Origin: Pseudomonadota bacterium
Lineage (GTDB): Bacteria; Pseudomonadota; Alphaproteobacteria; Acetobacterales; Acetobacteraceae
Reading direction: 5' to 3'
DNA: 64,000 nucleotides
Assembly: GCA_021805565.1 (NCBI GenBank)
Contig: JAJZFA010000045.1
Coordinates: 1-64,000 of the forward strand
In this document: piece after piece, positions 11,370 to 63,635 of the stretch
How positions within the stretch are numbered: the first letter of the stretch is position 1
How the letters are laid out: every line of letters begins with the position of its first letter
Notes under the pieces: model-generated
What the model was told of the DNA's origin: nothing
Seen by the model: the letters and a program-made list of their open reading frames with translations, nothing else
Database searches by the model: none
Made by a program: the position numbers and the translations under genes

Positions 11370-12047
11370 CTAGCCCTTCTTGGCGGGCGCCTTGGCGGGG
11401 GCCTTGCCCGGTGCCTTGGTGCCGCCCTTGGCGGGCGCGGCGGCCGGCGCACCGGGGGCAGCCGCTTCGGCGACCACTTCGATCTTGGTTGGCGGCACGA
11501 CGGTGGCCACCACGAAATCGCGGTCGATCACCGGCTTGACGTTCTCGGTGCCCTTAAGGTCGTGCCAGCGGACATTGTCGTTGAAGTCCAGCGGACCGAG
11601 GTCGGCGGTGAACTGTTCGGGAATGTGGTCCGCGTCGCAATACACTTCCACGGCGTGACGGACGACGTTCAGCACGGCGCCGCGCTTGATGCCGGGGCTG
11701 ATGCCGTCATTCTCGAAATGGACGGGAACGGCGACCTTGATACGCTGCCCGGCGACGAGGCGCTGAAAATCGACGTGTTCCGGCGTATCGGACACTGGGT
11801 GGAACTGCACGCCGCGGATCAGCGCCCGGACCGGTTCGGCGCCGCCGGTAATTTCATACAGACGGGACTGCCAGCCGGCTTTGTGGAGTTCGCGGATCAC
11901 GACGCGGGGGTCGAGCGCGATCAGGTTGGGTTCCTGCTTTCCGCCATAGATAACCGCAGGCACTTTGCCTGCGCGCCGAGTCGCCCGCGCCGCCCCCTTA
12001 CCGCTTCGCGCACGAACCTCGGCCTCGATTGTAACAACGTTGGCCAT
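11370..12047 (-). CDS. rplY: Large ribosomal subunit protein bL25, CTC form
   Basis: A 225-residue bL25/general stress protein CTC, which binds 5S rRNA. The N-terminal 5S-binding domain ([21 protein letters not shown]) is followed by the beta domain and a low-complexity Ala/Pro/Lys tail over the last 35 or so residues, as in many alphaproteobacteria. A GGAG ribosome site lies seven bases before the ATG. It is the first gene of rplY-pth-ychF. Confidence 0.95.
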
Positions 12048-61612: not shown

Positions 61613-61640
61613 ATTAACGGTTTGTAACCATCTAATTCTG

Positions 61641-61676
61641 AGACCCAGCTATGATTAAGTGGCTGGGTCTTTTTTA
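61641..61676 (+). terminator. Intrinsic terminator after tldD
   Basis: A perfect 9-bp stem (AGACCCAGC with GCTGGGTCT), a 12-base loop and six consecutive T, about 30 bases after the tldD stop. Confidence 0.9.
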
Positions 61677-61842: not shown

Positions 61843-61865
61843 TTTGACGTTAACTTAACGTCAAA
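61843..61865. promoter_or_regulatory. Perfect 23-bp palindrome upstream of the repeat gene
   Basis: TTTGACGTTAA and TTAACGTCAAA are perfect inverted arms around a single C, followed by an A-run. There is no T-run after it, so it is not a forward terminator. It lies 108 bases before the preferred ATG and contains TTGACG, a possible -35 box without a good -10 at normal spacing. A repressor or activator operator for the repeat gene is likely. Confidence 0.55.
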
Positions 61866-61973
61866 AAAACGACAATAAATTCTCATTCTGTAAACATGTC
61901 TCCATCGACGGATCGCAAACGGTTTCCTGAGCGGTTCGTGATGTTGAAACATAATCACAGAAGGGTCACGCCA

Positions 61974-62735
61974 ATGTCTGCTTTCGCCACTGTCTCCGCT
62001 CTGATTTCCGTCAGCGACGCATCGAAGGTCCGCATGGGCGGGTTCGCACCCACGCTGGCAACGGCCGACGCATCGAAGGTCCGCATGGGCGGGTTCGCCC
62101 CCACACTGGCAACGACCGACGCGTCCAAGGTTCGCATGGGCGGGTTCGCCCCCACACTGGCAACGACCGACGCGTCCAAGGTTCGCATGGGCGGGTTCGC
62201 CCCCACCCTGGCAACGGCCGACGCATCGAAGGTCCGCATGGGCGGGTTCGCCCCCACGCTGGCAACGGCCGACGCATCGAAGGTCCGCATGGGCGGGTTC
62301 GCCCCCACCCTGGCGACGGCCGACGCGTCCAAGGTCCGCATGGGCGGGTTCGCCCCCACCCTGGCGACGGCCGACGCGTCCAAGGTCCGCATGGGCGGGT
62401 TCGCCCCCGCCCTGGCGACGGCCGACGCATCGAAGGTCCGCATGGGCGGGTTCGCCCCCACGCTGGCGACGGCCGACGCATCGAAGGTCCGCATGGGCGG
62501 GTTCGCCCCCACACTGGCGACGGCCGACGCGTCCAAGGTCCGCATGGGCGGGTTCGCCCCCACACTGGCAACGGCCGACGCATCGAAGGTCCGCATGGGC
62601 GGGTTCGCCCCCACGCTGGCGACGGCCGACGCATCGAAGGTCCGCATGGGCGGGTTCGCACCCACGCTGGCGACGGCCGACGCGTCGAAGGTTCGCATGG
62701 GCGGGTTCGCCCCGGCGCTTGCAACCAAAAGATGA
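61974..62735 (+). CDS. Tandem-repeat protein of 14 near-identical 17-residue units
   Basis: A 253-residue protein with a short leader MSAFATVSALISVS, then 14 consecutive copies of the 17-residue unit DASKVRMGGFAPTLATA, ending in KR. Each unit holds one Met and one Phe, Gly-Gly and a Pro, and no Cys. Substitutions are few: Thr for the last Ala in units 2-3, Ala for Thr in units 8 and 14. The ATG at 61974 has a GAAGGG ribosome site 8-10 bases upstream. No signal peptide or known fold is seen. It could be a multi-core precursor peptide or a repetitive surface or structural protein; I recognise no family. Confidence 0.85.
   Translation: MSAFATVSALISVSDASKVRMGGFAPTLATADASKVRMGGFAPTLATTDASKVRMGGFAPTLATTDASKVRMGGFAPTLATADASKVRMGGFAPTLATADASKVRMGGFAPTLATADASKVRMGGFAPTLATADASKVRMGGFAPALATADASKVRMGGFAPTLATADASKVRMGGFAPTLATADASKVRMGGFAPTLATADASKVRMGGFAPTLATADASKVRMGGFAPTLATADASKVRMGGFAPALATKR
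62016..62729 (+). repeat. Tandem array of 14 x 51-bp units within the gene
   Basis: Fourteen direct head-to-tail 51-bp units fill almost the whole gene without spacers. A 16-base core, CGCATGGGCGGGTTCG, is identical in all 14. Other differences fall nearly all at third codon positions of the plus-strand frame. Whole-unit recombination would keep the frame. Confidence 0.97.
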
Positions 62736-62846: not shown

Positions 62847-63635
62847 GTGAATATACCTCCACCCGCCGCCACCCCGGCCGCCAAGCCCAAGCTCGTAACC
62901 TTTCATCGTATGATCTCGACCGCGCGCATGCCGCAACGCGCCGACCGATCGGCGGCCGGATCGCTGCCGACACGCGCGTTTCGGTATTGCGAGGCGGCAA
63001 CCTCCGCCGCCGCGTTCGGGTACTACCTGTTTCCGCCGATCGGCTTTTCCGTCCAATGGGATGGCCACGACATTATATGGACGTTCGAGGGTGCGGGCGA
63101 CTGGTTCCCGCTGAATTCCGCCGTCCAGTTCCCTGGATTCCGCGACCAGTTCGACGCGGTCGCGCCGGATGAGATCAAGGAATTCTCCCCGCCGTTTCTC
63201 GGAGCGTTGCAGGAACCGGGGCTGATCCAGCTCTGGATGGGCCTTGTTGTCCGGACTGCTCCTGGCTGGAGCCTGCTAGTCCGAGCGCCCGCCAATCTGC
63301 CGCGTAGCGGCGGGTGGGAGCCGTTCGAGGGAATCATCGAAACCGACCGTTGGTTCGGACCGCTGATCACCAATCTGCGGCTGACCAAAACGAACGTGCC
63401 GATCGACTTCAAGCCCGACTTTCCCCTGTTGCAGGTTCAACCGATTCCGCGCCATGTCTATGAAGACGCGACCCTCAACAACTATGAGATCGTGCCGGAA
63501 CTGACCCAACTGACTCCGGAAGACTGGGACGATTATTATGATACGGTCGTCCGCCCCAATTCGCAGGTTGTTCGCCCGCGCGGTCAATATGCCGCCGCCG
63601 CGCGCAAACGGCGGAATGCCGAAGACGGCGGATAG
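62847..63635 (+). CDS. DUF6065-like protein next to the repeat gene
   Basis: A 262-residue soluble protein with GTG start and an AAGGA site 11 bases upstream. It has an N-terminal Pro/Ala-rich segment, then a domain with FGYYLFPPIGFSVQWDG, GDWFPLN, PGWSLLVRAP, GIIETDRWFGPLITNLRLT and LLQVQPIPRH. From memory this matches the DUF6065 family (uncharacterised); I cannot confirm by search. It lies 111 bases after the repeat gene on the same strand, so it may act on or with the repeat protein. Confidence 0.65.
   Translation: MNIPPPAATPAAKPKLVTFHRMISTARMPQRADRSAAGSLPTRAFRYCEAATSAAAFGYYLFPPIGFSVQWDGHDIIWTFEGAGDWFPLNSAVQFPGFRDQFDAVAPDEIKEFSPPFLGALQEPGLIQLWMGLVVRTAPGWSLLVRAPANLPRSGGWEPFEGIIETDRWFGPLITNLRLTKTNVPIDFKPDFPLLQVQPIPRHVYEDATLNNYEIVPELTQLTPEDWDDYYDTVVRPNSQVVRPRGQYAAAARKRRNAEDGG

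Follow-up and report, generated by a model that had tools for sequence, protein, structure and literature searches.

A recurring set of tandem peptide units and a DUF6065 protein with a predicted dUTPase fold in Acetobacteraceae

The array gene and its units

The window, that is, the whole 64,000-nucleotide stretch of DNA analysed, carries on the plus strand an array gene (61974..62735, ATG start) of 253 amino acids. It consists of a 14-residue N-terminal stretch or 'leader', MSAFATVSALISVS (61974..62015), which is unlike that of most other loci, followed on the same strand by 14 units of 17 residues, DASKVRMGGFAPTLATA, and a final Arg (62016..62732); the units, of 51 bp each, occupy 62016-62729 and the stop codon follows the Arg. 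A second ATG in frame with the open reading frame (ORF) is located at 61896. A gene for a DUF6065-subfamily protein, hereafter the partner, lies 111 bp 3' of the array on the plus strand (62847..63635), and a perfect 23-bp inverted repeat, TTTGACGTTAA-C-TTAACGTCAAA (61843..61865, unstranded), ends 109 bp before the array. TRF assigned the array a period of 51, 13.9 copies, and a score of 1163, the remaining two rows for the window scoring only 62 and 63. The ORF analysis and TRF agree on the 14 tandem 17-residue units behind a 14-residue stretch described in the original prediction, including its start and end. A weak 12-bp tandem repeat with five copies is present elsewhere in the window (11379-11438).

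The core of each unit can be written as D-x-G/S-K-V-R-L/M-G-G/A-x-x-P-S/T-L, followed by a variable linker. A few units deviate: units 8 and 14 have Ala in place of Thr13, units 2 and 3 have Thr in place of Ala17, and unit 14 has Lys at position 17. Pairwise comparison of units 1-13 gave 222 synonymous versus 34 non-synonymous differences (pS 0.199, pN 0.012, pN/pS 0.06), and these units vary at third codon positions, save for the first positions of codons 13 and 17. Since the differences are mostly synonymous, it is the peptide sequence itself that has been conserved, under strong amino-acid constraint. Cys is absent from the array, as originally noted, and is present in a second copy in the same genome. 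This second module (L135, G000:C62:19000-27000) comprises a SARP gene, a YeiH-family gene, a peptide gene, and a DUF6065 gene, and its peptide has four Cys-containing units, ADTGKIVLGGGCRLPVKT.

Two family matches of the array protein, to the lasso peptide J25 family (NF033471; whole-protein score 23, equal to the cut-off, with 9 residues matched) and to DUF3299 (PF11736; whole-protein 35.1 bits, above the cut-off of 22, over 28 of 139 positions), were rejected because they are sums over repeats with no single stretch passing. A secretion signal was not seen on the array protein by eye. As for a defence system, PADLOC at E up to 0.01 matched no family with any of four proteins, namely the array, the window's DUF6065 protein, a SARP homologue (L009), and the YeiH-family protein of the second module.

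The homologue and neighbour search proposed with the original prediction recovered related arrays in 63 of the 397 sampled Acetobacteraceae genomes and in 25 of 102 genera; neighbours were conserved, and nothing marks the homologues as adhesins. Named relatives are Rhodopila, Acidisphaera, and Roseomonas, which together with a proteobacterial MAG account for six loci and suggest that the window itself belongs to Acetobacteraceae. An array is present in Acidisphaera sp. S103 (L010), on a contig that ends before a partner is reached. The number of units ranges from one, in a 33-residue peptide, MKQTGSPASSATKDVGRIRLGGGWRLPSSKPNR (L181), to at least 20 (L067, counted in an open frame), with contigs frequently breaking within arrays. 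Single-unit peptides of about 33 residues also occur at L177, L180, L182, L185, and L187. At another locus (L173) the unit is composite, with VRLGAMSPA-VRLGAMSPALPVADAAK alternating as a unit within a unit.

The consensus from 355 units of 58 loci is T-A-D-A-G-K-V-R-L-G-G/A-x-A/S-P-S/T-L. The units were cut by a pattern requiring K/R, V/I, R/K/Q, L/M/I/F, and G, and those columns are conserved partly by construction; the narrow residue choice inside the pattern is also informative, and so are the columns outside it, D (99%), P (86%), and the final L (97%). Many arrays end directly after P-S/T-L, so the functional unit probably extends from D to L, with the linker in between. The variable segments diverge strongly among lineages (GFAPTL, GGYRLP, AGLR, GLQRAI). 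On inspection the short N-terminal stretches vary from locus to locus in both length and sequence, with no leader peptide conserved across them. Since the conserved D-x-G-K/R-V-R-L-G sits inside every unit, recognition is probably embedded in the unit rather than in a classical leader.

The DUF6065 partner and its predicted fold

The partner matches PF19541 with an E value of 1.3e-14 (54.7 bits; curated cut-off 26.6), which places it in DUF6065, in a subfamily distinct from canonical DUF6065; with Pfam matches listed at E up to 10, all 57 subfamily members match DUF6065. In 41 of 51 genomes, neighbour clustering places the DUF6065 family next to an array, the median distance being 81 bp; contigs commonly end inside the array. 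Subfamily profile A1, built from 57 sequences (the window's and 56 of the 65 passing a length filter), matches 119 of the 397 genomes at E up to 1e-40. These include 60 of the 63 array genomes versus 59 of the 334 without a detected array (Fisher p 1.2e-33), the former count being not fully independent since many of the A1 sequences adjoin arrays. The Pfam DUF6065 model gave 60 of 63 versus 84 of 334, and missed the same three array genomes, G082 (73% complete), G094, and G334 (68% complete).

The association was also approached from the partner side. Forty DUF6065 loci were taken from Pfam-model matches and five canonical ones were set aside; the remaining 35 genome loci were joined by 12 loci of the viral collection, each having 150 bp or more of upstream sequence, and by five loci from other families, which makes 52 in all. 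Scored with a matrix built only from array-first loci, leaving out one locus at a time, 38 of the 52 have an upstream unit peptide above a threshold of 4.7, which is the best score of 90 downstream controls (the best of 91 reverse-strand controls is 5.7). After iteration of the matrix the number rose to 41 of 52, with a control maximum of 13.0. Six peptides added by eye, as a matter of judgement, bring it to 47 of 52: repeated FGDGGCIYR (L136), repeated FRFGAGMQP (L137), QVGGGYRLP twice (L168), repeated KVKLGMMAPAFGKS (L211), HIANKSPAF three times, one copy with Met for Ala (L214), and, as the weakest case, GGTNR twice (L192). No upstream peptide was seen at five of the 52 loci (L141, L142, L146, L162, and L189). 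Three of these, L142, L146, and L162, belong to genus g98, of which two genomes (G233 and G264) keep an array elsewhere (L097 and L089, respectively).

Array and partner can thus lie apart, as in g98 with arrays L089, L097, and L103 and partners L142 and L146; the genomes of these three arrays hold the subfamily away from the array, a natural split arrangement, and another g98 locus (L081) has array and partner together. Similarly, three arrays of genus g58 (L063, L066, and L086) have no adjoining DUF6065 gene, yet their genomes encode the subfamily elsewhere. The pairing extends beyond Acetobacteraceae to three loci of family f41 (L210, L212, and L213), one of f66 (L211), and a Rhizobium plasmid (L214). 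The partner subfamily is homologous to canonical DUF6065 (PF19541); the five canonical loci (L155-L159), unlike it, lack the unit motif within 1 kb upstream. Overall, the best-supported statement is that the peptide units and the dUTPase-fold protein belong together.

The original prediction had allowed for a repetitive surface or structural protein; as an adhesin or coat protein, the array would stand beside its neighbour by chance. The array is repetitive, of low complexity, and without a known fold, as such a protein would be; yet the 33-residue single-unit homologues, the recurrence of partner and regulator across families, and the lack of a visible secretion signal disfavour this role and make it very improbable. 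Equally far-fetched, in our estimation, is that the array is an upstream ORF merely controlling translation or attenuation of the DUF6065 gene, its peptide being irrelevant. The common strand and the short distance, 111 bp in the window and a median of 81 bp in relatives, would suit such control, but the strong purifying selection on amino acids, the core recurring across families, and the arrays that lie apart from DUF6065 genes argue against it.

Relatives of the window's partner were found in nine of 337 genomes of a class-wide sample (G000, G436, G562, G658, and G580 at E <1e-100) and in one of 299 of a phylum-wide sample, which is the window's own. There were none in named phage records and two in plasmid records, both from Rhizobium, of which one was inspected. 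In a viral collection the window protein found no relative, profile A1 found 18, and profile A3 found seven. Two of the subfamily genes lie within a few kb of phage-type genes, namely a terminase-like frame at L184 and genes for endolysin and integrase at L192; prophages may therefore carry the module. Canonical DUF6065 homologues are also found in the interior of 26-56 kb viral-collection contigs (L194, L195, L197, L198, and L199). Canonical frames at L131 (1462-3168), L129, L130, and L133 are longer, with 554-570 aa, and the one of these four that was scanned (L131) is fused at the C-terminus, unlike the partner subfamily, to a Cupin_8/JmjC-like domain, a possible functional hint for DUF6065.

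AlphaFold2 modelled the partner with a pLDDT of 86.3 and a pTM of 0.77 from 29 sequences (the window, L009, L011, L014, and 25 viral-collection loci); with four sequences it was uninformative (pLDDT 34.4). In Foldseek, 47 of the best 50 rows have a title naming a dUTPase, and chains of 6h4c make up the remaining three; the best E value is 3.6e-5, with a TM score of 0.38 by partner length and 0.78 by dUTPase length. In VIA-align all of the best 50 rows have such a title, and 3ecy_A aligns over 119 of 119 residues with Z 11.7 and rmsd 2.9. Viral predicted structures that match the partner are dUTPases and uncharacterised phage proteins. When profiles A1, A3, and A4 were compared with a profile of dUTPases from 19 loci, none gave a significant match (probability <2%), and the link to dUTPases therefore rests on the predicted structure.

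As in the dUTPase superfamily (PF00692), the match covers the full dUTPase length; unlike in dUTPases, about half of the partner lies outside the match, and a PF00692 match (0 of 57 subfamily members), motif 2 PRSG, and motif 5 are lacking. A weak alignment of A4 with the 19 dUTPases sets the dUTPase motif-3 region against GIIETDRWFG, the motif-4 region against PLLQV, and motif 2 PRSG against APAN; motif 5, RGxGGFGSTG, is missing from the partner's C-terminus in the 29-sequence alignment. Invariant residues of the subfamily include R43, C48, W78, N150, E161, W169, G171, and R253, with no His among them. PDB sequence searches with partner profiles gave an atrazine-binding protein at E 0.095, no match, and a match at E 0.71, which were taken as chance. 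By prediction, then, the partner has a dUTPase fold and is not a dUTPase.

One alternative is that the uncut array is a multivalent intracellular ligand or inhibitor, which would titrate or assemble the dUTPase-fold protein and perhaps act as a switch for the SARP regulator. dUTPases are commonly trimers, and titles in the fold search include dUTPases complexed with the repressor protein Stl; moreover, the core is present in every unit, the copy number varies freely, and one partner is well conserved. Against this, 33-residue single-unit peptides lie beside the same partner, so that multivalency is not essential, and the variable segments are strongly lineage-specific. We consider such a role unlikely.

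The SARP-type regulator, promoter repeats, and other neighbours

The regulator that often accompanies the set is a protein of about 700 aa with BTAD and TPR matches. BTAD was found in the three homologues scanned (L009, L014, and L103; E 4.9e-14), the TPR matches are mostly weak, and one homologue also has a weak TolB_N match. Of 97 partner loci, 45 have a SARP homologue within the fetched stretch, the lengths of which differ; by group, these are 28 of 35 partner-first genome loci, two of 18 viral-collection loci, one of five other-family loci, and 14 of 39 array-first loci. Among loci having 3 kb on both sides it is present at 16 of 30, whereas the stretches of the three f41 loci and the Rhizobium locus lack it. 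Gene calls in these neighbourhood analyses came partly from a simple codon score. The gene may be downstream and convergent, upstream and divergent, or on the same strand, and it adjoins two of the arrays that lie apart from their partner (L089 and L103). Across seven whole genomes there is about one closest SARP copy per partner locus, and G235 and G580 hold extra distant copies.

In the window's genome, SARP copies are on contigs C58 and C62 and partners on C29 and C62. The C58 copy is 81% identical to the Rhodopila SARP and is the closest regulator to the window's array; it adjoins cytidylate-kinase-like and aroA-like genes, both named by inspection. Since the SARP gene follows array and DUF6065 gene beside a cytidylate-kinase-like gene at L009, L011, and L046, this shared neighbour suggests that the window's regulator has probably been separated from its array.

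According to the passages drawn from a review of SARPs (PMC10972967), classical binding sites are direct repeats in 11-bp units. The regulators here resemble the SARPs of those passages in the BTAD domain and the upstream repeats with an 11-bp period, and differ from the Streptomyces proteins reviewed there in being alphaproteobacterial and in joining BTAD to TPR, one with a weak TolB_N. The 23-bp inverted repeat is the sole match in the 4.49-Mb genome even with up to three mismatches, and its minus strand continues as TTGTCG/TTGACG/TTAACG at 11-bp spacing. Of 90 upstream regions, eight carry TTGACG-type pairs as direct repeats with 11-bp spacing in one orientation and 11 do so in the other, and 17 have them inverted with 15-bp spacing; none of 96 downstream controls has such pairs. 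Shuffling the sequences 60 times gave, in the same order, means of 1.3, 1.9, and 3.0 and maxima of 4, 6, and 8. The 90 regions are 92 minus two near-copies; related genomes supplied several of them, and since the hexamer was selected once the promoters had been viewed, the enrichment is only suggestive. The stronger part is that exact or near-exact direct repeats reach the remote loci L154, L160, L161, and, in Rhizobium, L214.

Genome-wide, one-mismatch 11-bp pairs number nine forward and 11 reverse, versus seven and six for a backward-pattern control. A single pair is therefore not specific; three such pairs overlap at the array promoter. The 23-bp inverted repeat is a candidate SARP operator. 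TTGACG-N5-TTAACG-like sites are also present in the genome at C39:18392, C39:33067, C51:9995, C51:10316, C54:5962, C61:105290, and C63:14967; some of them share a spacer, and they could be further targets of the regulator or an unrelated element.

Peptide signals are sensed by a TPR receptor in RRNPP systems, and the array could similarly belong to a signalling circuit, in which freed units would be the signal, the TPR part of the SARP the receptor, and the DUF6065 protein the maker or carrier of the signal. BTAD and TPR occur together in the SARP homologues, close SARP copies track the module, and repeats are found upstream of the peptide genes. The TPR matches are mostly weak, however, and TPR commonly mediates protein contacts, as the same passages state (PMC10972967). 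The array also shows no secretion signal by eye, and its closest regulator is on another contig (C58). A circuit of this kind seems to us quite improbable.

TldD, a family linked to microcin B17, is encoded upstream of the window's array (Pfam), and tldD-like genes are directly upstream in 26 of 51 array-first genomes; they are found in the stretch at 11 of 97 partner loci and at one of 35 partner-first genome loci (L149). A terminator-like hairpin of 13 pairs followed by a T run (61640-61671) parts tldD from the array, a call that rests on stem length, since the terminator scan gave two sites versus 2.4 in shuffles. On account of this separation and the scarcity at partner loci, TldD was regarded as an old neighbour, and a role for it as the processing protease as less likely. 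Apart from TldD, Pfam identified none of the known RiPP enzymes among five proteins of the window and nine from relatives, NCBIfam gave no tailoring enzyme for the five window proteins, and ATP-grasp, YcaO, radical-SAM, and lanthionine enzymes were absent from the neighbours scanned. Exporter genes vary by lineage, with EamA at six and the YeiH family at seven of 97 loci and most stretches having neither. By inspection, both the window and the Rhizobium locus continue with an MFS-like gene.

A possible role for the set

Multi-core RiPP precursors include microviridin AMdnA, cyanobactins, cyclotides, orbitides, and ustiloxins, and multi-core processing is described as rare in the excerpts of PMC5934393 on which we draw. 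The array resembles the precursors in these excerpts in that one gene encodes several near-identical short peptides and adjoins a conserved protein, here a candidate modifier. It is unlike them in having no conserved leader, a conserved core in each unit, up to at least 20 units, and, among the neighbours scanned, none of the four enzyme types named above. A ribosomal peptide beside a conserved candidate modifying gene, the arrangement of a RiPP precursor, is thus present. Of the multi-unit precursor originally proposed, the units themselves stand and have gained homologues in many genomes, a conserved DUF6065 partner, and a recurrent SARP; the classical leader finds no support.

From what was computed, i.e. 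the array, its conservation, the association of partner and regulator, the predicted fold, and the repeats in part of the promoters, we infer binding, modification, cleavage, export, and regulation in the following scheme. A recognition core, D-x-G-K/R-V-R-L-G, would be repeated in every unit, with a variable segment and a linker behind it. A DUF6065-subfamily protein without the motif-2 Arg-Ser or motif 5 would bind each unit, each unit being a putative recognition site for the partner as the simplest link between the two genes, and would most probably modify what it binds. Some protease would then free the small peptides; for their export, some lineages may use a transporter encoded nearby, whether EamA, a YeiH-family protein, or the product of the window's MFS-like gene. 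The SARP/BTAD-TPR regulator would switch the set on through the 11-bp repeats upstream of the peptide gene.

Modification and cutting are suggested by the architecture, namely small ribosomal peptides, a dedicated partner, a SARP-type regulator, and lineage-dependent transporters, and by the invariant Cys and the acidic and aromatic residues of the partner. A precursor is made less certain by the few neighbours scanned, which showed none of the known RiPP tailoring domains, by inconsistent exporters, by a SARP that is not universal, by the five partner-first loci where no peptide was seen upstream, by arrays apart from their partner, and by a predicted fold that is silent on peptide chemistry. 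On balance, we give about an even chance to the reading that the array is a precursor of several peptide units, or a peptide substrate with many sites, which the DUF6065 protein would bind and probably also modify and which the SARP would control. A more specific version is tentative and somewhat doubtful: the set would make a new class of ribosomal peptide product or signal, in which a dUTPase-fold enzyme without dUTPase catalysis modifies leaderless peptides of one to 20 or more units at their cores, and a TPR-SARP controls the set and may sense the product.

Judged by titles and the beginnings of abstracts, no paper in the open-licence PMC literature concerns an array-DUF6065-SARP system, and none there mentions DUF6065. 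The combination of three genes fits no known kind that we can name, and on that ground the set is judged new; it is apparently an undescribed recurring bacterial gene set of peptide units, a dUTPase-fold partner, and often a SARP, in which a small peptide product is most likely made from the units. We know of no RiPP class that uses a dUTPase-fold partner, and the dUTPase fold is otherwise known to us only from nucleotide chemistry and regulator binding.

Should the set turn out to be a RiPP system, the kind would be known and the class new. DUF6065, a Pfam family without an assigned function, gains a clue in its predicted dUTPase fold and in a subfamily tied to short conserved peptides; and if the partner modifies these peptides, the dUTPase fold would acquire a role in peptide tailoring. 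A precursor that needs no leader, is recognised unit by unit, and varies freely in copy number would suit the production of many peptides from one gene.
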